DNA of 23,719 nt from an uncultured Eubacteriales bacterium (GTDB taxonomy: Bacteria > Bacillota_A > Clostridia > Lachnospirales > Lachnospiraceae). Positions 3,308 through 22,637 of the stretch are shown piece by piece (position 1 is the stretch's first letter; each line of letters starts with the position of its first letter). The notes beneath the pieces were generated by a model. The model saw only the letters and a program-made list of their open reading frames with translations. It ran no database searches and was not told the origin of the DNA. The stretch covers positions 1 through 23,719 of the forward strand of contig CADCPV010000220.1 in NCBI GenBank assembly GCA_902803345.1. The letters are read 5' to 3'. The position numbers and the translations under genes are program-made.

Positions 3308-4144
3308 CCCCAGAAAATGCTGATAAATATCGCGTTTTGTGACTCCTCTGTCCTTAGCGGCCATTTTCATCGCTTCTTTTCGCGCGTATCCCTGTTTTTC
3401 ATACATTTCCACATGCTTTTCTATACTGATTTCTTCCCAGGACTCCGATTCTTCCTTTCTGATCTCTTCCCTCGATTTTCCTTCGATCACCAGCACACAT
3501 TCCCCCAAAGGTTTATTATCCCGGTAATAAGCGATCAGATCGTCGAGCGTCGTCCGCATGCAGGTCTCATGCTTCTTGGTCAGTTCCCGGCAAAGCGAGA
3601 TCTGCCTGCTGCCGAGCGCTTCTCTCAGTTCTTCAAGCGTCCTTACCAGGCGATGCGGCGCTTCATAGATCACAATGGTCCGGGTTTCATCCTTAAGCTC
3701 CTCAAGGATCAGCCGCCTCTCTTTCTTGTCCGCCGGCAGAAAAGCCTCAAACGCAAATCTGCGCGTGGGAAGGCCCGACATGGTGAGCGCGGTGATACAC
3801 GCAGCCGGCCCCGGAACGGATGTCACCGGGATGCCCTCCTCGTGGCACATCGCACAGAGCTCTTCCCCGGGGTCGGAAATTCCGGGTGTCCCGGCGTCCG
3901 TGATCAGGGCGATATTCTTCCCCTCCAGAAGCTGACCGACCAGATACCTTCCTTTATCGATCTTGTTAAACTCATGATAGCTGGTCATCGGCGTGTGAAT
4001 ATCAAAATGATTGAGAAGCTTGATACTGTTTCGCGTATCTTCCGCTGCGATCAGATCCGCTTCTTTAAGGATCCGCAGAACCCGGAACGTAATATCCTCA
4101 AGGTTTCCGATCGGCGTCGCGCAAAGATATAATGTTCCGCTCAT
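3296..4144 (-). CDS. rsmI: 16S rRNA (cytidine1402-2'-O)-methyltransferase
   Basis: RsmI methylates the 2'-O of C1402 in the 16S rRNA decoding centre using S-adenosylmethionine. The protein is 282 residues (E. coli RsmI is 286) and has the tetrapyrrole-methylase fold signatures: MSGTLYLCATPIGNLEDITF at the N-terminus and DAGTPGISDPG around residues 83-93. An ATG at 4189 overlaps the trmN6 stop as ATGA and would add 15 residues. I prefer the ATG at 4144 because AGGAG lies just upstream and the family normally begins exactly there. It is the last gene of its operon, as in Bacillus where the homologue yabC follows the trmN6-like yabB. Confidence 0.95.
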   Translation of the reverse strand: MSGTLYLCATPIGNLEDITFRVLRILKEADLIAAEDTRNSIKLLNHFDIHTPMTSYHEFNKIDKGRYLVGQLLEGKNIALITDAGTPGISDPGEELCAMCHEEGIPVTSVPGPAACITALTMSGLPTRRFAFEAFLPADKKERRLILEELKDETRTIVIYEAPHRLVRTLEELREALGSRQISLCRELTKKHETCMRTTLDDLIAYYRDNKPLGECVLVIEGKSREEIRKEESESWEEISIEKHVEMYEKQGYARKEAMKMAAKDRGVTKRDIYQHFLGGKG

Positions 4145-4185
4145 AAAAATCTCCTGTTTACATTCGTATGGATCGTTCTTCACGA

Positions 4186-4926
4186 TCATATCATATGATA
4201 AATTTCCAGAATCGATTTGGTATACACCCCGGGCTTTTCATACACGATCAGCGGCCTTTCGACCGTCAGACGCGGATTTCCGCCTTTCCGGGCTTCGATC
4301 AGAACCATGTTGGGCTCCCGGTCGATATACGGGTACACCAACTGCATCCGCTTCGGCTCCAGACGAAACCTGCGAAGTACCTCAAATATCTCCGCCAGTC
4401 TGAAGGGTCTGTGTACCATAAAGAACCTGCCCCTGTCTTTCAGGACATAAGCAGCCCCTTTTACCACATCCTCCAGCGTACAATAGATCTCATGTCTTGC
4501 GATCGCTTTCGGCAGATCGGGATTGGTCAGTCCATGTTTGCCTATCATGTACGGAGGATTGCTGACCGCCACATCAAAAGAACAGGCTCCAAACATCTCC
4601 CGGATATTTCTGATATCACCCTGCATAATAGAAATACGCTCTTCAAGATGATTATAGCGCACACTTCTCTCCGCCATCTCGGCGCACTCTTTCTGCAGCT
4701 CTATCCCCGTAAAATGTTCTCCCTCGGTCCCGGACGCAAGAAGAACGGGAATAATTCCCGTTCCTGTCCCCAGATCCAGCACCGTCTCTCCTTTTCGCAC
4801 GTCGGCAAACCCGGAAAGCAGCACCGCATCCATACCAAAGCAGAACTTTTCCGGATCCTGGATAATAAAATATCCATTCTGCAGATCATCGATTCGCTCG
4901 TTTTTTCGAACCGGGCTCTCTATCAT
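4186..4926 (-). CDS. trmN6: tRNA1(Val) (adenine37-N6)-methyltransferase family protein
   Basis: This is a class I SAM-dependent methyltransferase of 246 residues. The SAM-binding motif is DLGTGTG at residues 51-57, and NPPY at 123-126 is the catalytic motif of N6-adenine methyltransferases. The segment ERIDDLQNGYFIIQ followed by FCFGMDAVLLSGFA is typical of the TrmN6/YabB group, which modifies A37 of tRNA. The start at 4926 overlaps the end of ricT by 41 nt. GGAG about 12 nt upstream, within the ricT coding sequence, supports it, and no later in-frame start would keep the conserved N-terminus. The family assignment is firm. The exact tRNA substrate in this organism is inferred. Confidence 0.9.
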   Translation of the reverse strand: MIESPVRKNERIDDLQNGYFIIQDPEKFCFGMDAVLLSGFADVRKGETVLDLGTGTGIIPVLLASGTEGEHFTGIELQKECAEMAERSVRYNHLEERISIMQGDIRNIREMFGACSFDVAVSNPPYMIGKHGLTNPDLPKAIARHEIYCTLEDVVKGAAYVLKDRGRFFMVHRPFRLAEIFEVLRRFRLEPKRMQLVYPYIDREPNMVLIEARKGGNPRLTVERPLIVYEKPGVYTKSILEIYHMI

Positions 4927-5896
4927 GCTTTTTGGAATCTCCTTTTTTCTCGCCGGATCTTTTCTTCTCTCCGGATCCTTTAGGTTCTTTATCTTTGTCC
5001 TTTTCTTTATCCTTCTCTTTTTCCTTTGGTTCGCGGTTTTCTTTCCGGTCCTGCTCCTGGTTCTGCCCTTTGCCTTTCTTCTTGCGCGGACGGAATTCCA
5101 GATCGTCCACCGGATACTCCGTGATCTCTTTCTGGTCGTTCTCCTCTATCACCACTTTTACCAGCTGACGAAGGACATTTACACTGTGGACCGTACCCTG
5201 TCTTCCGTCGGGAACGACAACCTGATCTCCCGGAGAAGGAAGCTTCTTGTTCAGTTCCTCATAGGTTTCCTGCTCATTTTTAAGACAGCACATCAGTCTG
5301 CCGCACACACCCGAAATTTTCGTCTGATTGAGCGAAAGATTCTGCTCCTTTGCCATCTTGATCGAGACAGGTGCAAAATCGGCCAGATACGAGTGGCAGC
5401 AGAGACTTCTGCCGCATATTCCGATACCGCCGAGTATCTTTGTCTCGTCCCTCACACCGATCTGGCGAAGCTCTATCCTGGTCTTAAAAATGGATGCCAG
5501 ATCCTTCACCAGAAGTCTGAAATCGACCCTGCCGTCCGCGGTAAAGTAAAACAGCACTTTATTATTGTCAAAAGTATACTCTGCATCGATCAGCTTCATA
5601 TCCAGCTGATGCTCTCTGATCTTCTGTTTGCAGACTTTAAAAGCTTCTCTCTCCTTCTGCCGGTTCCGGTCCTCCCTTTCGTCGTCCTCGGGAGTGGAAA
5701 GGCGCACTACCTCTTTAAGAGGATGCACTACTTCTTTATCCTTCACTTCCTTCGGTCCCAGAACTACCCGGCCGTATTCTATACCGCGTGCGGTTTCCAC
5801 GATCACGTGGTCATTCACTTCAATATCATAATCCTTCGGATCAAAGTAATAGATCTTACCCACATTCCGAAATCTGACACCAACAACTTTTGCCAT
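4886..5896 (-). CDS. ricT: PSP1-domain protein, RicT (YaaT) family
   Basis: RicT is a component of the Y-complex of Bacillus (RicA-RicF-RicT), which binds Fe-S clusters and affects RNase Y-dependent mRNA maturation and Spo0A phosphorelay outputs. The 336-residue protein has a PSP1 core (about residues 1-215) with the hallmark cysteines in ICGRSLCC (C161, C166, C167) and VCGRLMCC (C198, C203, C204). From about residue 270 it carries a long Lys/Glu/Asp-rich tail absent from the 275-residue Bacillus protein. The last bases of that tail are shared with the start of trmN6. The ATG at 5896 has GGGAG 5 nt upstream. The ATG at 5908 has no such site. Location between holB and trmN6 is the standard Firmicute arrangement. 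Confidence 0.93.
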   Translation of the reverse strand: MAKVVGVRFRNVGKIYYFDPKDYDIEVNDHVIVETARGIEYGRVVLGPKEVKDKEVVHPLKEVVRLSTPEDDEREDRNRQKEREAFKVCKQKIREHQLDMKLIDAEYTFDNNKVLFYFTADGRVDFRLLVKDLASIFKTRIELRQIGVRDETKILGGIGICGRSLCCHSYLADFAPVSIKMAKEQNLSLNQTKISGVCGRLMCCLKNEQETYEELNKKLPSPGDQVVVPDGRQGTVHSVNVLRQLVKVVIEENDQKEITEYPVDDLEFRPRKKKGKGQNQEQDRKENREPKEKEKDKEKDKDKEPKGSGEKKRSGEKKGDSKKHDREPGSKKRANR

Positions 5897-5956
5897 TTTT
5901 ACTCCCATTCATTAAATGCTTATATTGCATATGTTCAGAACCTGAACATATACCTT

Positions 5957-6946
5957 TTATCTTTCTCTGAAGGTCAAAAACAGGAGTTCCAGCGCAAGCT
6001 CAGGATTGACATTCGCACCCAGCCTGACCTTTGTCTTGTCGATAGCCTCCAGTATCTTCTCCAGATTTTCATAGGATCTTTCACTGGCCTGATCCCTGAT
6101 ATAATTGATCTCCTGCTTAAAAACAAGATTATCGATCTCCGTCGTAGCCTTAAAAAGCAGTACATCCCTGAACCAGAACTGAAACAGATCAAGATAATCT
6201 TCGATCTTTGTCTTGTCCGCCGCGAGCTTTTTGATCTCCTCGGTCAGCTCTGAAACATCCATCTTTCCGGCATATTCCAGCAGATGCAGCGCCTTATCGG
6301 TAAGTTCCGAGAATTCCTGTGAGGCAGCAGCTTCCTTCGCTTTTCCAATGCTTCCCTGAGCGATGGTCGCATCGATCTCGGCCTGATAATCCGGAATATG
6401 CATATGCTCCATCAGGTACTGTTTGACAACGGCATCATCCACAATTTTAAGATCCAGCCGCACGCATCTGGACAGGATCGTCGGAAGAAGAATATCCGCA
6501 TTGTTTGTCAGCAGCATGATGACCGCATACTCGGGCGGCTCTTCGATCGTTTTTAAAAGCGCGTTCTGCGCCGAAGCATTCATCATCTCCGCATCGGGAA
6601 TGATATAAACCTTATATTTACCGTAATATGGACGGATAGCCACATCATGTATCACCTGATCACGAATCTCATCCACCGTGATCAGACCGGGTTTTTCATG
6701 CTCGACAAAAATAATATCCGGGTGATTATTACCGATAACCTTTTTACACGAATCACAGACCATGCAAGGCTCTGTTCCGCCTTTTTCGCACTGAAGCGCA
6801 GCGGCAAAAGAACGGGCGACGGTCTTTTTTCCCGCACCTGATTCTCCTGTCAAAAGGTAGGAATGAGATATTTTTCCCGATTCCATTGCATTTCTTAAAT
6901 GACGGATAACCTCGTCATGTCCGATAATATCATTAAAGCTTATCAT
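5957..6946 (-). CDS. holB: DNA polymerase III subunit delta' (clamp loader)
   Basis: HolB is the delta' subunit of the clamp loader that places the beta clamp on primed DNA. The 329-residue protein has an intact Walker A-like GESGAGKK at 34-41, a zinc-binding cysteine set (C53, C61, C64, C67), NALLKTIEEPP, and the SRC motif in LPTILSRCVRL. The start is placed at ATG 6946, preceded by GGGGTGATTAT, giving MISFNDIIGHDEVIRHLRNA. A GTG 33 nt upstream is also in frame but lacks a good site. ricT follows after about 60 bp. Delta' rather than DnaX is supported by the short length and by the ricT neighbour, as in Bacillus. Confidence 0.94.
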   Translation of the reverse strand: MISFNDIIGHDEVIRHLRNAMESGKISHSYLLTGESGAGKKTVARSFAAALQCEKGGTEPCMVCDSCKKVIGNNHPDIIFVEHEKPGLITVDEIRDQVIHDVAIRPYYGKYKVYIIPDAEMMNASAQNALLKTIEEPPEYAVIMLLTNNADILLPTILSRCVRLDLKIVDDAVVKQYLMEHMHIPDYQAEIDATIAQGSIGKAKEAAASQEFSELTDKALHLLEYAGKMDVSELTEEIKKLAADKTKIEDYLDLFQFWFRDVLLFKATTEIDNLVFKQEINYIRDQASERSYENLEKILEAIDKTKVRLGANVNPELALELLFLTFRER

Positions 6947-7026
6947 ATAATCACCCCATTTCGTATCAGTTCCGGACACTTATTCCATTTTTATTTTCTG
7001 TCGGCACCTTTATAAATATACCGGAT

Positions 7027-7076
7027 GACATAATGTCCCTTACTATAAATTTATCATAAAACATCAGGTTTGTCTA
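7027..7076 (-). promoter_or_regulatory. Weak candidate promoter and small palindrome upstream of holB
   Basis: TAGACA (7071-7076) lies 17 bp before TAAATT (7048-7053), directly after the stop codon of the kinase-like gene. An 11-bp palindrome, GACAT-T-ATGTC (7027-7037), sits near the expected start site. The 130-bp gap is the largest inside this gene run, so an internal promoter is plausible, but the -10 matches only four of six consensus positions. Confidence 0.25.
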
Positions 7077-7664
7077 TTACTGCTGTTCTCTGATATACAG
7101 GGTGATATTCTTCAAACACTCCTCTTTATCGTCGTTGACAAAACGGACCGTTATTCCCGCATCCTTTAATTTTTCCTCCGAAAAATCCTCCTCATCGGCA
7201 AGAAATCTGCGGCACATCTCGGCATACCGCCCGTTCTCCGGCTTTTTTTCTCTCTTCAGCGCTCTGGTCAGCCTCTCCCCGTCCTCAACTTCGATGTAGA
7301 TCGGACATACCTTATCCCGGCCGTAATAATCTCTCAAAGCGCAGTAAGACTCAAGAGTTCCTATTCCCAGATAGTTCGAACCATCCCATGCTATCTGCCC
7401 GTCGTCCGCGGTAAAATAGGCCCATATTCCGTGAACTGTATGGTAATCTCTCTCCTCTATGATGATCCCTCTGCTTTTCATCTCATCAAGCTCATCATGT
7501 GAGACAAAATAATACTCTCTTCCGTTTTCCTCTCCGTCACGCATCGGACGGGTAGTGTAAAGGATCAGTTTTTTAAAAGAAAACTCTTCCGTATTCATCA
7601 GCTCCCGGTAGATCGAATCCTTCCCGGAAGCACTTTTTCCGATAATATAAAATAATTTACTCAT
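7077..7664 (-). CDS. Divergent guanylate-kinase-like P-loop protein
   Basis: This 195-residue protein resembles the guanylate kinase superfamily. It has a P-loop GKSASGKD at 9-16 and YTTRPMRDGEENGREYYFVS, which matches the GMP-binding TTRxxRxGExxGxDYxF signature. It departs from housekeeping Gmk further on: the usual DIDxQGA element is not visible, and after EERDYHTVHG the sequence becomes atypical. It could be a GMP/dGMP kinase, a kinase with altered specificity, or a GuK-like protein without that activity. It follows the decarboxylase by 14 bp and precedes holB, the position held by tmk (thymidylate kinase) in Bacillus. The ribosome binding site is weak, so translational coupling to the decarboxylase is possible. 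Family confidence is good but function is uncertain. Confidence 0.75.
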   Translation of the reverse strand: MSKLFYIIGKSASGKDSIYRELMNTEEFSFKKLILYTTRPMRDGEENGREYYFVSHDELDEMKSRGIIIEERDYHTVHGIWAYFTADDGQIAWDGSNYLGIGTLESYCALRDYYGRDKVCPIYIEVEDGERLTRALKREKKPENGRYAEMCRRFLADEEDFSEEKLKDAGITVRFVNDDKEECLKNITLYIREQQ

Positions 7665-11047: not shown

Positions 11048-11113
11048 AAATTTGAAACAGGGGAACACAAAAGGACCGTCCCCCTGTGTTCCCCTGTGTT
11101 CCCTTTCAAATTT
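11048..11113. repeat. REP-like palindromic element at the 3' end of metK
   Basis: The outer arms aaatttgaaa (11048-11057) and tttcaaattt (11104-11113) and the inner arms caggggaacaca (11058-11069) and tgtgttcccctg (11085-11096) form a 22-bp stem. It is interrupted only by a 7-nt bulge tgttccc (11097-11103), which duplicates neighbouring sequence as a tandem cccctgtgtt. The loop contains aaaggaccgtccccc. The GGACGGTCCTTTTGTGT-type core resembles short palindromes dispersed in many clostridial genomes, often linked to REP-associated transposases. That link is from memory and not shown here. The element overlaps the metK stop codon and could also act as a 3' stabilising or termination structure, although no T-tract follows it. 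Confidence 0.65.
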
Positions 11114-12299
11114 ACAGATACTTTCTCAGCACTTCCGCCTTATCCGTCTTCTCCCACGGAAACTGCACATCAGTCCGTCCAAAATGCCCATAGGCAGCAG
11201 TCTTATTATAAATCGGACGGCGAAGATCAAGCATCTTGATGATCCCTGCCGGACGAAGATCAAAGTTCTCGCGGATGATCTCCACAAGCTTTGTCTCCTC
11301 TACCTTACCTGTTCCAAATGTCTCAACATGAATAGAAGTAGGATGCGCCACACCGATCGCGTAGGAAAGCTGGATCTCGCATTTATCGGCAAGCCCGGCT
11401 GCTACGATATTCTTCGCCACATATCTCGCCGCATAAGCCGCCGATCTGTCAACCTTAGTGCAGTCCTTTCCGGAGAAAGCTCCGCCGCCGTGGCGTCCCG
11501 TTCCGCCGTAGGTATCCACAATGATCTTCCTGCCGGTAAGTCCGCTGTCGCCGTGAGGTCCGCCGATAACAAAACGTCCGGTAGGATTGATAAAGTATTT
11601 GGTATCCTCATCGACCATATCCGCCGGAATTACCGCGTCAAAAACATACTTTTTGATATCTTCGTGGATCTGCTCCTGTGTGACATCGGGGTCATGCTGC
11701 GTAGAGCAGACAACAGCGTCGATCCGCTTCGGGGTTCCCTGCTCGTCATACTCTACTGTAACCTGCGTCTTTCCGTCCGGTCTCAGATACTTAAGCGTTC
11801 CGTCTTTGCGGACTTTCATCAGCTGATAAGACAGCTTATGTGCCATATTGATCGCATAAGGCATATACTCTTCCGTCTCGTTGGAAGCATAGCCAAACTG
11901 AATACCCTGATCCCCTGCACCGATCGCGTCGAGTTCATCTTCATTCATCTCATCTTCTCTTGCTTCCAGAGCCTTGTCGACACCCATGGCAATGTCCGCA
12001 GACTGCTTATCCAGCGCGATCATAACAGCGCATGAATCCGCATCAAATCCGTAGTCGCCGCTTGTATATCCGATCTCACGGATCGTATCTCTGACGATCT
12101 TCTGATAATCGATATTTGCATTGGACGTGATTTCACCCATCACAAAAACAACACCCGTAGTAGCGCATGTCTCACACGCTACACGGCTCATCGGATCCTG
12201 CTCTACAAGCGCATCCAGAATAGCGTCCGAAATAGCATCGCACATTTTATCCGGATGCCCTTCTGTAACTGACTCTGAAGTAAACAAAATTTTTCCCAT
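11112..12299 (-). CDS. metK: S-adenosylmethionine synthetase
   Basis: MetK makes S-adenosylmethionine from methionine and ATP. The 395-residue protein is full length and carries HPDK at 15-18, the ATP-binding hexapeptide GAGDQG at 127-132, and the P-loop-like [12 protein letters not shown] 12299 has AAAGGAAATCATT upstream. Expression should be shut off by its own product through the SAM-I riboswitch in the leader, closing the loop between enzyme and ligand. It supplies the cofactor for rsmA, trmN6 and rsmI in this same window. The stop codon lies inside one arm of the palindromic element. Confidence 0.98.
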
Positions 12300-17467: not shown

Positions 17468-17493
17468 AAAAAAAACTCCCCTAAAAAGAGGAG
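17468..17493 (-). terminator. Intrinsic terminator upstream of the S1 promoter
   Basis: On the minus strand CTCCTCT and AGGGGAG pair over 7 bp (one G-U) around TTTT, followed by eight T. It insulates the S1 operon from transcripts entering from the rsmA side or from any short RNA made in the AT-rich tract. Confidence 0.8.
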
Positions 17494-17494
17494 C

Positions 17495-17518
17495 GCCCCG
17501 GCAGTGGTTTACCGGGGC
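17495..17518 (-). other. GC-rich hairpin directly before the terminator
   Basis: GCCCCGG and CCGGGGC form a perfect 7-bp stem around a 10-nt loop (minus-strand loop TAAACCACTG). It has no T-tract of its own and sits one base upstream of the terminator stem, so the two make a tandem hairpin. It may be part of a small RNA or of a dispersed terminator-like repeat. Confidence 0.6.
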
Positions 17519-17528
17519 AATTATTATG

Positions 17529-18860: not shown

Positions 18861-21800
18861 TTATTTTCCTCTGATGAAATCTCTTTCATAGAGAATAATA
18901 AATCCATTTTCATCTTTTCTCTTTTTCTCTGCGTTCTTCTGGAAGAGCTTTAATCCCCCTTTACTCTTTGCAATGGCGGCATCTACGATCTCTTTCACTG
19001 CTCCTATATTCATAGGCAGATCTTCCTTCTGGTTGATGCTGATCAGATTGTACAGAGCAAGCATTCCGTTGTTATCGATCCGATAACCGTTCTCCATCGC
19101 ATATATGCGCGCAAAGTTGGCAAGCTCATCGTTGGTGAAGACCGGAATGTTAATGATCGAAGTAAACTTTTTGGCAAGCTTCGGATACCTTGCCATCATC
19201 TTCCTCATTCCGATCTTGTCATCCTCCAGAACAAAGATCATTCCTCCGGTATCGCCTTCCATCAATTTTGTCAGGTTTACCGCCGTCTCCTGTTCCAGCT
19301 GATTGGCATTTTCGATTACCAGAAAACCTCCGCGGAGCTTGGAAACTATTTTGTTGACATCTTTTCCGTTGATCTGTTCCGCAAATACATAGGCCACTTT
19401 CGAAGCTTTAAGATTGAGCTCTTTACAGATTGCCGGTATCAGACCCGATATCAGCCTGGTCTTTCCCGATTCCGCTCCGCCCATCACTATGATATTTCCG
19501 GTATTCGAAGTTCTGTCGGATGCCTGGATCTGAACATCACACAGCGCATCTATGATCTGTTCTCTCATTCCCGGAACTTTTACAAAGTAGGAAAACAGCT
19601 TTATCTCCTCTTCGCTCAGCTCTTTGCTCCTGGGGATAATGTCTACTTCTTCCGATGTATATTCCGGCTGAAGAGAAGCGATAAAGCTTTCAATCCTGTC
19701 TTCTTCCGAAATATCAAGATCGTCGTCCTCATCCTCGTCCTCATCTCTGATGACGCCTGTTATAAGATACTCTTCATCATCCAGATCTTCTTCATTTTCA
19801 CCTTCGGCAATCTCCGCTGCAAGATCATCCTCTTTTTCTTCTTTTGCGACAGGATTCTCTTCAACATCTTCTTCCTCGAGAATCGTATTGAGGTCAGGCA
19901 TCACCAGATCGGGAACTTCCTCCTGCTCTTCATTATCATCTTTAGGAGGAAGCTGCCTGGTATTCTGCTTAAGAGAACTGATCGATTTCTTTTCTTCCGA
20001 ATTTATCATCTCTTCAATGATAACAGGCTCGTCTTCATCCTCTTCTGCAGGTTCTTTAACAGCGGCCGGCTCTGCTTTTTCTGTCGGTTTTCCGGGTATG
20101 GCTCCCGGAATTTCTATACCCTGAGCAAAAGCTGCGGCAAGAATAGTATCCTCAAGATTGAATTCTTCCTTAGGCTCTTCCGGAACCTCTTTTACTACCG
20201 GAGCAGCAGTTTTTTCTGCTTTCTTTTCTGTCCCTGACTCCCCGGAAACCTTCGGTATTCTCGGTACTTTGGTTTCTTTGGACTTTTTGGGTTTCCTGAA
20301 CTCTCTTACAAATTCCTCTTCGTCCTCATCCTCAGATTCAAGCTCTATTTCATCCTTGGTTTCATCAATGTAAAATGCTTCCTTCCTCGGTGCACTTCTC
20401 ATTGCCCGGGCAAATTTGAATTCAGGGAATTTAAATTCTATCTTTTTCTTTTTCTTCTTCTCTTCAGGTTCTTTTTCACGATCATCATCGGAATCTTCAT
20501 CAAATTCTTCGTCCGAAACTTCACCGGAAACTTCATCCAAGTCTACGCCCGAAACTTCATCCGAAGTCTCATCATAGTCTTCATCCGAAATTTCATCATA
20601 ATCCTCATCGGAGTCTTCTTCAAAGTCTTCATCAATAACTTTATTGAGTACTTTGTTTCGCTTCTCTTCCGATCCTTTCTCGTCCCTGATGCCTTCGTCT
20701 TTCTTTTTTAACGATCTCTTTTTCTTCTCAGGTTTTTTTATCGGCTCTTCTTCCGGCTCATCATAATCCGAAAAATCTTCGTAACTTTCTTTTTCCCGAT
20801 CATCATCGTGAACATCATCATCGGCATAATCCGATGCTTCATCATCGATCAGATAATCATCAGAGTAATCATCGTCCTCTTCATAATCATCATAATCTTC
20901 TTTTTTCTTTTTATGCTCTTTTTCTTTCTCCTCGGTATTATCTGTTTTTCTTCCGCCGAAAAGACTTCTGAATCCTTTGGATATCTTTTCTCTGTAAGTC
21001 TCGGCACCGGCCAGATCTCTCTTATTTTCTGTGCTTATACTCTCGATCAGAGGAGCGCCATCGTCAAGAATATTTTCTTCAGGATCATCTTCAAAATCTT
21101 CTTCCTCAGTCTCTTCGTCATCGATTTCTTCCGGGATCTGCTCTTCGCCTGTTTCTCCGTACTCTTCGTCTGTTCCTTCTGACGCTTCATCTTCAGTATA
21201 ATCCTCTTCCGGTTCCGAAATATCTTTATCAGATTCCTCTTCAAATTCCTCTTCTGATTCTTCTTCCGGCTCCTCTTCAGAAACGATCTTAGAACCTTTT
21301 CTCTTTAACTTCCCTGAGAATAGCTCAGACAGGAAGCCCTGTTTTTTCTTTCTCGGAGTTTCCGGAAATTCCTCACTGTCATCGTCATATTCTTCTTCGT
21401 CATATTCTTCCGGAATTTCTTCATGAACGACCTTGCGTTTTTTCTTCTTCGGCCTCTCTGTGACTTCTTCCGGAATCACTTCATGAACAACTTTGCGTTT
21501 TTTCTTTTTCGGCCTTTCTGCGACTTCTTCTTCCGGAATGAGCTCGGACTCTTCCTCAGAAGGCTCTGCGGAAATCTCCTCAGAAGCACTCTCAGGTTCT
21601 TCTTCGGGAAGGATCTCCGATTCTTCTTCATAAACAACTTCAGATTCTTCCTCAGGATTCTCTTCAGAAACAGTTTCGGATTCTTCCTCTTGAGATTCTT
21701 CCTCGTGAGGTTCCTCCGAAGTCTCCTCAGAAACGATCTCCCGCTCCTCTTTCTCTGCCTCTTCCGATATCTCTTCAGAAATATTTACAAACTCTTCCTG

Positions 21801-22571
21801 AACTACAGGACTCTCTTCTTCCGAAACCTCTTTTTTATCTTTTTCCTCATCATCGGAAGCGCTGATTTCAACCTCCTCGATGATCGTCTCTTTCTCTTCT
21901 TCCTTAGGTTTCTTCTCAGAAGCTTTTTTCTCTTCGCGAGCTCTTCTCTCCGCTTTCGCTTCGGCATCTCTTTCGAGTTTTTCTTTTTCTCTGTCAGTAA
22001 TGACGCCCATCCGCTGCTTCAGCTCAAGAGCTTTCATTACATAAGGTCCGTCACTGAACCAGAGAACCATCTCGCTGCAGACTTCTTCACACTTGTCTTT
22101 TTTGCCGGCCATATAATAAAGCTTGGCCAGCTCATAAGACCATTTTTCTGTGAATTCCTTGCTCTTATACTCCTCAAGAACCTGAATCTGATCCTCAATA
22201 GGTGCCTTTTTTTCTTTAAGGATCTTATATTTAAGAACGCAGGCGGTATTGTCATTGGGAGCAACCGAACAGAATTCCTCATAATAATCCGTCGCCTCGT
22301 CGATCTCTCCCATTTTAAGAGAAACTTCAACCAGACGGTACAGTATATTTTTGCCTATGGATGCCCGATGATAAGCAAGAAGGAAAATATCTCTGCTGTC
22401 TTCATATCTCTTGTTAGCGGCATAAATTTCTCCGACAACGCAAAGAGTACGGACATTTTTTACGCGGCGCCAGTCAATGCTGTCCACCACTTCCATAGCT
22501 CCCTTGTAATCTTTTGCCTCTACAAGGTGGTTAATTTCATCAAGTTTAATACGAAATTCCTCTTTATCCAC
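18861..22571 (-). CDS. Giant acidic protein: TPR-like N-terminus, disordered Glu/Ser/Asp-rich middle, degenerate AAA+ C-terminus
   Basis: I do not recognise a named gene. With a GTG start at 22571 (GGTGA upstream, about 30 nt after the predicted start site) the protein has 1236 residues. Residues 1 to about 205 look like helical TPR-type repeats (KDYKGAMEVVDSID, NKRYEDSRDIFLLAYHRA, EIDEATDYYEEF). A charged helix follows, then about 750 residues of low-complexity Glu/Asp/Ser with Lys-rich islands and tandem repeats. From about 980 a folded domain resembles CbxX/SpoVK-type AAA+: Walker A GGAESGKT (1031-1038), GGFLVIENANQL where Walker B should be, and FTNDELANFARIYAMENGYR near the end. The Walker B acidic pair reads E1087-N1088 instead of D-E, and the RSRF-like arginine motif reads AKKF, so ATP hydrolysis may be lost. 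No signal peptide or membrane segment is seen. Confidence 0.85.
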   Translation of the reverse strand: MDKEEFRIKLDEINHLVEAKDYKGAMEVVDSIDWRRVKNVRTLCVVGEIYAANKRYEDSRDIFLLAYHRASIGKNILYRLVEVSLKMGEIDEATDYYEEFCSVAPNDNTACVLKYKILKEKKAPIEDQIQVLEEYKSKEFTEKWSYELAKLYYMAGKKDKCEEVCSEMVLWFSDGPYVMKALELKQRMGVITDREKEKLERDAEAKAERRAREEKKASEKKPKEEEKETIIEEVEISASDDEEKDKKEVSEEESPVVQEEFVNISEEISEEAEKEEREIVSEETSEEPHEEESQEEESETVSEENPEEESEVVYEEESEILPEEEPESASEEISAEPSEEESELIPEEEVAERPKKKKRKVVHEVIPEEVTERPKKKKRKVVHEEIPEEYDEEEYDDDSEEFPETPRKKKQGFLSELFSGKLKRKGSKIVSEEEPEEESEEEFEEESDKDISEPEEDYTEDEASEGTDEEYGETGEEQIPEEIDDEETEEEDFEDDPEENILDDGAPLIESISTENKRDLAGAETYREKISKGFRSLFGGRKTDNTEEKEKEHKKKKEDYDDYEEDDDYSDDYLIDDEASDYADDDVHDDDREKESYEDFSDYDEPEEEPIKKPEKKKRSLKKKDEGIRDEKGSEEKRNKVLNKVIDEDFEEDSDEDYDEISDEDYDETSDEVSGVDLDEVSGEVSDEEFDEDSDDDREKEPEEKKKKKKIEFKFPEFKFARAMRSAPRKEAFYIDETKDEIELESEDEDEEEFVREFRKPKKSKETKVPRIPKVSGESGTEKKAEKTAAPVVKEVPEEPKEEFNLEDTILAAAFAQGIEIPGAIPGKPTEKAEPAAVKEPAEEDEDEPVIIEEMINSEEKKSISSLKQNTRQLPPKDDNEEQEEVPDLVMPDLNTILEEEDVEENPVAKEEKEDDLAAEIAEGENEEDLDDEEYLITGVIRDEDEDEDDDLDISEEDRIESFIASLQPEYTSEEVDIIPRSKELSEEEIKLFSYFVKVPGMREQIIDALCDVQIQASDRTSNTGNIIVMGGAESGKTRLISGLIPAICKELNLKASKVAYVFAEQINGKDVNKIVSKLRGGFLVIENANQLEQETAVNLTKLMEGDTGGMIFVLEDDKIGMRKMMARYPKLAKKFTSIINIPVFTNDELANFARIYAMENGYRIDNNGMLALYNLISINQKEDLPMNIGAVKEIVDAAIAKSKGGLKLFQKNAEKKRKDENGFIILYERDFIRGK
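20500..20625 (-). repeat. Acidic tandem repeats within the giant protein gene
   Basis: The encoded stretch contains successive 8-residue units such as SDEDYDEI and SDEDYDET, then related SDEVSGVD, LDEVSGEV and SDEEFDED units, from degenerate 24-bp DNA repeats. The pattern suggests growth by slippage or unequal exchange inside the disordered region. Boundaries are approximate. Confidence 0.6.
21421..21530 (-). repeat. 60-bp tandem repeat encoding ERPKKKKRKVVHE units
   Basis: Positions 21421-21470 and 21481-21530 are near-identical copies with an exact 60-bp (20-residue) period. Each encodes ERPKKKKRKVVHE followed by (E/V)IPEE. The few differences are mostly at synonymous positions, so the peptide is conserved between copies. 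It forms a basic island within a strongly acidic region. Confidence 0.85.
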
Positions 22572-22572
22572 A
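22564..22572. promoter_or_regulatory. Consensus DnaA box at the start codon of the acidic protein gene
   Basis: TTATCCACA on the plus strand is an exact DnaA-box consensus and overlaps the GTG start codon, about 30 bp downstream of the predicted transcription start. It is a single site, so autoregulation-like control by DnaA is only a possibility. Confidence 0.3.
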
Positions 22573-22608
22573 ATTTTCACCAACTTTCTGTCATTGCACT
22601 CATTGGTT

Positions 22609-22637
22609 AGTTTATCATACACATATTTACTTGTCAA
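22609..22637 (-). promoter_or_regulatory. Promoter of the acidic protein-rsmA operon
   Basis: A perfect -35 TTGACA (22632-22637) lies 17 bp before TAAACT (22609-22614), preceded by TGA as an extended -10. The -35 overlaps the last codons of recF. The predicted start near 22602 falls upstream of the chosen GTG and downstream of an in-frame TTG at 22637, which argues against that TTG as the translation start. Confidence 0.65.

Follow-up and report, generated by a model that had tools for sequence, protein, structure and literature searches.

A TPR protein with a degenerate CbbX/SpoVK-like AAA+ domain, probably a non-motor adaptor or scaffold, in Blautia and its family

The AAA+ clade of CbbX, SpoVK and EccA is marked by a GY signature at sensor 1, by an Asn placed four residues ahead of the first arginine finger together with the finger Arg itself, and by variable N-terminal recruiting domains, TPRs included (PMC10659427). 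Its active members are described there as chaperones that each serve a single target or setting: Rubisco for CbbX, MurG for SpoVK and type VII secretion for EccA (PMC10659427). Here we describe a large acidic protein with a TPR-like head and a C-terminal pseudo-AAA+ domain, encoded in 23,719 nucleotides of an uncultured Lachnospiraceae bacterium (contig CADCPV010000220.1, assembly GCA_902803345.1; this whole stretch is called the window). The gene, its protein and their relatives are referred to as X. We consider it fairly probable that X is an adaptor or scaffold and not a motor, the window holding one copy of a protein that is near-universal in the family of Blautia.

The open reading frame (ORF) of X is real and lies on the minus strand, at 18861-22637 from a TTG start or 18861-22571 from a GTG start, and the latter (MDKEEF) is the start position used by some relatives (P0008, P0103). 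It is not a chance frame, since 6284 of the 7986 scored candidate clusters, which were only the candidates sharing most words with it, matched its C-terminal part at E <= 0.001. Its parts are as follows (motif positions were computed from residues of the TTG-started ORF).

18861..22571, minus strand: whole X gene from the GTG start, 1236 aa
21963..22571, minus strand: TPR-like head, 203 residues, the better conserved part of the family
19683..21962, minus strand: acidic low-complexity linker, 760 residues, 39% Asp+Glu, disorder presumed from composition only
18861..19685, minus strand: C-terminal pseudo-AAA+ domain, about 273 residues (274 modelled), predicted local distance difference test (pLDDT) score 85.9
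19458..19481, minus strand: Walker A GGAESGKT, intact (from residue 1053)
19308..19313, minus strand: Walker B pair E-N replacing D-E (residues 1109-1110)
19164..19175, minus strand: arginine-finger region AKKF (from residue 1155)

An earlier note, made from this DNA alone, had described a large acidic ORF with a TPR-like head, a Glu/Asp linker of about 750 residues and a C-terminal P-loop domain of CbxX/SpoVK type, and this architecture was borne out. Its motif positions were also correct in GTG numbering (GGAESGKT from 1031, E1087-N1088, AKKF from 1133), which is offset by 22 from the TTG numbering (1053, 1109 and 1155). The linker comprises TTG residues 226-985 with a net charge of -188 and is presumed to be flexible, and the GTG-started protein has an isoelectric point of 4.34 and a charge of about -192.

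The AlphaFold2 model of the C-terminal domain (pLDDT 85.9, predicted template modelling score 0.82) displayed an AAA+ core with a C-terminal helical lid, and the Foldseek and VIA-align rows listed consisted of what we take to be AAA+ proteins. As modelled, the domain is an AAA+ fold of the CbbX/SpoVK kind. Its identity to CbbX, the red-type Rubisco activase (PDB 3zuh, 3syl, 3syk), was 14-17%; unlike CbbX, it has E-N for D-E at Walker B, Lys for the finger Arg, no sensor-2 Arg and no GY at sensor 1, while the CbbX chains have neither the TPR head nor the acidic linker. No family library used here named X above its cut-off: it scored 23.2 bits with the CbbX family TIGR02880 (cut-off 459) and 18.9 bits with the EccA family TIGR03922 (cut-off 467), and with TIGR02881 of SpoVK, the AAA+ chaperone of MurG in sporulation, the match extended over the second half of the domain at 24.8 bits, far below the 423-bit cut-off. 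We know of no acidic linker or dead active site in EccA. Like X, EccA has TPRs ahead of an AAA+ domain of the same clade, and SpoVK, unlike X, requires an intact Walker A, Walker B and finger (PMC10659427). A search covering open-licence PubMed Central papers found no description of X; the author of the earlier note knew of no described protein of such architecture. A defence system was also considered and rejected, PADLOC giving only Csx3 (E 0.041).

The loss of the active site was examined in an alignment of 135 loci plus the window (136 core sequences). The D-E pair of Walker B was present in 0/136; the first position was Glu in 120 and the second was variable (Lys 42, Asn 31, Arg 13, Asp 12, Glu 11, His 10, others). 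The finger Arg was kept in 5/136 (YPKLAKKF in the window versus NPGLRSRF in controls), the sensor-2 Arg in 1/136 (Gly in the window) and the GY signature at sensor 1 in none of the 136 (D-D in the window). Among 23 weaker-scoring AAA+ matches taken as controls, 18 showed FIDEAY and the Arg-finger motif, which indicates that the contrast is not an effect of alignment; of the remaining five, three were third domains of triple-AAA+ proteins and two were divergent members of the X family. Across the core sequences, the set of features for hydrolysis (Walker B D-E, arginine finger, sensor-2 Arg) has disappeared, and several clades have lost the P-loop as well.

Indeed, the Walker A Lys was missing in 36/136 core sequences, with at least 7 changes on the tree. 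For a wider count we used 175 loci, which include L226, an outgroup-like protein, and two divergent loci with split genes (L227 and L228), and omit L032-L061 (short, mostly from genomes refetched longer), the intended control paralogues L162-L177 and the glgB regions L182-L201; in 7/175 only the AAA+ part of X was recognized. A search for the sequence pattern downstream of residue 200, made without alignment, gave a P-loop motif in 101/175 loci, at least one match (L229) being possibly due to chance, and in only 5 of the 40 loci added beyond the core alignment. When loci were grouped by neighbouring gene (the groups overlap), GxxxxGK[ST] was kept in all recF-type (28/28), glgP-type (10/10) and rsmA-downstream (40/40) loci, in 32/64 glgB loci, in 4/23 recR loci and in 1/17 rsmA-upstream loci. 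G69, G74, K75 and T76 were invariant in alignment A2 (27 sequences). Loci linked to recR, L202 and L207 for example, have other sequence in place of the P-loop strand, and their domain is broken by an acidic stretch.

This pattern bears on the possibility, which we hold tentatively, that X of the P-loop-bearing clades only is an ATP-gated switch, in which ATP would be bound, held by the altered Walker B, and would set the conformation or oligomer state. The uniform retention of the motif in three groups of loci and the invariant residues of A2 favour it, as does the fact that active AAA+ proteins mutated in the Walker B Glu still bind nucleotide but do not hydrolyse it; because whole clades lack a P-loop, however, binding could be the common function only if those clades had changed theirs. 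The earlier note had predicted nucleotide binding without normal hydrolysis and a switch or scaffold; the catalytic set is indeed lost, but binding is not family-wide, and a switch would apply at most to some clades, the window's included.

The head was recognized mainly at family level. As a single sequence it gave weak TPR matches (best E 1.2e-4, under the Pfam cut-off), and as a family profile clear matches to consensus TPR chains (best E 1.2e-20). In 128 loci with both parts, the heads shared 48% identity on average in pairwise comparison and the AAA+ parts 38%; in 93% of 3000 random pairs the head was the more similar of the two. ORF lengths ranged from 267 to 1656 aa (median 904), setting aside one longer frame of a divergent locus, which crosses a masked stretch and was rejected as a gene fusion for that reason. 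The protein of L240 consists of the head alone (267 aa), and in L227, L228 and L238 the head and the AAA+-like part are split into separate neighbouring genes. Within the linker, FNLEDTILAAAFAQGI-like and ISKGFRSLFGG-like stretches occurred in the window and in 67/120 and 86/120 close proteins, respectively, but in only 17/175 and 12/175 loci, and are therefore clade traits.

X is near-universal and mostly single-copy in Blautia's family and rare outside it, as seen from profile counts across family, order and class samples; the family sample is called Lachnospiraceae on the basis of G003, the genome of L008, Blautia wexlerae. The AAA+ profile A3 matched 105/140 family genomes at E 1e-30, 30/146 order genomes at 1e-10 (12 above 180 bits, the others at 87 or below) and 7/245 class genomes at 1e-25. 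The head profile A4 matched 134/140 family genomes at 1e-20, 133 of them once, and 10/245 class genomes at 1e-15, two of these with less than 70 bits; of the ten, six are shared with the family sample and three with the order sample, and G601 is in neither. Six family genomes lacked a head match; in three of them (G022, G055, G119) A3 matched open frames of 422-607 aa at E 1e-30, which may be fragments. The one genome with two head matches, G049 (L100, L117), has glgB following both genes.

The head tree had 169 rows including the window and was built by quick searches with Shimodaira-Hasegawa-like approximate likelihood ratio (SH-aLRT) values only and several long branches. The window fell in a Blautia recF-X-rsmA clade, nearest to L001 from an uncultured Lachnospiraceae metagenome-assembled genome; in L001-L028, mostly Blautia, the C-terminal part was 65-83% identical. 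At the other extreme, L226 of the class-level genome G601 (3479-7486) resembles X in having a TPR region similar to the head (54 bits) and, after it, a single degenerate AAA+ domain with Walker B D-N, and differs in three further, canonical AAA+ domains with FIDEAY, the Arg-finger motif and NAR; an Hsp70 gene adjoins it. That X arose from such a TPR-multi-AAA+ ancestor by losing the active domains is a guess, the head match being weak and the branch very long.

For the adaptor or scaffold that we favour, we propose that the TPR head would hold a client protein, that the pseudo-AAA+ domain would serve as a docking or assembly surface, which in the window clade may still bind ATP without turnover, and that the flexible acidic tether would space the two. 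A degenerate AAA+ relative with a conserved TPR head would fit an adaptor for one specific client, and by analogy the client is likely one enzyme or complex, because the active relatives are dedicated activators of single targets. Several observations weigh against this proposal. The Asn four residues ahead of the first arginine finger was found in 51/136 core sequences and not in the window; the window clade keeps its P-loop throughout, so that ATP binding is possible there; 5/136 have the Walker A Lys together with Glu at the catalytic position, and slow hydrolysis is possible in some members. Moreover, the divergent L215 and L223 have D-E in the aligned Walker B columns, neither with a P-loop motif, and L226 is the only locus with both D-E and a P-loop, in its further domains.

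Gene neighbourhoods were compared in the 175 loci, of which 166 had an upstream and 172 a downstream ORF. Neighbours were the longest non-overlapping ORFs of at least 90 aa, taken without a gene finder and named from one representative per family; the GlgB, phosphorylase, alpha-amylase domain, RsmA, RecF and RecR representatives were all above curated Pfam or NCBIfam cut-offs. The next same-strand neighbour was glgB at +1 in 58 loci (within three genes in 64), glgP in 10 (-1 in 9, +1 in 1), rsmA in 57 (+1 in 40, -1 in 17), and, at -1, recF in 28, recR in 23 and an AI-2E transporter in 12; a GH13 gene lay within two genes in 8. A protein of about 1480 aa at -1 in 9 loci (L180:9427-13854 and kin), called SMC-like by eye, has a P-loop-like start, GGGKS, and no Pfam match at 1e-5. 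Within three genes of X, glg/GH13 genes were present in 76 loci, rsmA in 59, recF/recR in 53 and none of these in 40. The fewest changes on the head tree were 2 for recF, 7 for recR, 13 for rsmA, 12 for glgB and 4 for glgP, from which each neighbourhood appears largely clade-bound. The order rsmA - X - glgB - DUF6240 protein - flagellin - FliS recurred in L085, L088, L090, L094, L095, L097 and L100, so that X there borders on a flagellar cluster (the last three identities were checked on L133 and L134).

One possible, still tentative reading of this gene order is that X is a scaffold or activator for the alpha-glucan storage enzymes GlgB and GlgP, a degenerate cousin of the CbbX/SpoVK activating chaperones, which act on single enzymes (PMC10659427). 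The 76/175 glg/GH13-linked loci argue for it, with glgB adjacency in several clades and glgP in another; a separate coordinate count placed glgB within 1.5 kb downstream of X in at least 35/106 cases, counted over overlapping genomes from 106 X places against 45 glgB rows chosen by eye, among those listed, on X contigs. Against it, the window has no glgB, glgP or GH13 match, and no locus of the 175 has both glg/GH13 and recF/recR within three genes, so that the adjacency is tied to clades and may be inherited gene order. Likewise, 20 glgB regions had no X-like gene among the neighbours listed (12 came from genomes in which no AAA+ match reached E 1e-30, most of which carry the X head behind recR instead, and 8 from X-bearing genomes with glgB elsewhere). 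Co-occurrence was rejected as a functional test, glgB being present in 134/140 family genomes. This lead comes from gene order only, and the available part of a glycogen review of gut commensals (PMC10395257) treats glg genes in Blautia and Dorea and does not mention X. In those separate regions (L182-L201), glgB often follows a GH13 gene of about 455 aa and small regulator-like genes.

A broader version seems to us rather doubtful: a CbbX-type activating motor would have turned family-wide into a non-hydrolysing TPR/pseudo-AAA+ scaffold organising alpha-glucan storage (GlgB/GlgP) in many lineages, its motor decaying in stages (Walker B, then P-loop, then whole strands) readable across living relatives.

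The earlier note had preferred a housekeeping role linked to replication or ribosome assembly, from the recF and rsmA neighbours. Such a role, taken to include recombination and action with RecF/RecR or RsmA, we regard as unlikely and as one of several readings of gene order alone. The adjacency is real in the window, where all three genes are on the minus strand, recF ending 55 nt upstream of X and rsmA starting 19 nt downstream; recF and recR, whose products work in one pathway, lie next to X in separate regions of the tree, and rsmA adjoins it in about a third of loci (57/175). However, the recF loci are nearly one clade, mainly Blautia, X elsewhere lying behind recR, before glgB or behind glgP; only 2 of the 7 recR changes are forced by starred branches, in all 76 glg-linked loci rec genes are absent from the three-gene range, 19/23 recR loci have lost the P-loop, and recF, recR and rsmA sit in generic conserved clusters. 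A promoter-like site, TTGACA-17-TAAACT (10/12 consensus), lies at 22637-22609 immediately ahead of the GTG, and terminator-like hairpins with T runs lie behind rsmA at 17519-17475 (minus strand). These calls are consensus matches only (20 promoter-like sites versus 12.2 in shuffles), so that co-transcription of X with rsmA, claimed earlier, is plausible and that with recF uncertain. A decaying relic under weak selection is highly improbable, for although motifs were lost in stages, ORF lengths vary widely and head-only and split forms exist, the head is kept in 134/140 genomes and the C-terminal part is well conserved in L001-L028.

X is a conserved, nearly always single-copy protein, unnamed above cut-off by the family libraries used, in one of the commonest families of gut bacteria. 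The X family offers a graded natural series, from apparently nucleotide-competent to P-loop-less AAA+ domains, as a tool for asking what AAA+ proteins do without ATP turnover. Two testable functional leads come from the neighbourhoods of X, glgB/glgP and rec/rsmA, the first pointing to glycogen storage by commensals of the gut.

Opposite X, an antisense open frame of 395 codons (21423-22610, plus strand) is most likely a shadow of Glu/Asp-rich codons, like the 124-codon frames at 19750 and 20808. The hairpins at 17475-17519 sit between rsmA and an S1-domain gene, where about 690 nt contain no clear gene. Further along the window, an S-adenosylmethionine riboswitch (RF00162, 12412-12511, minus strand, 73.3 bits) precedes metK (11112-12299, minus strand).

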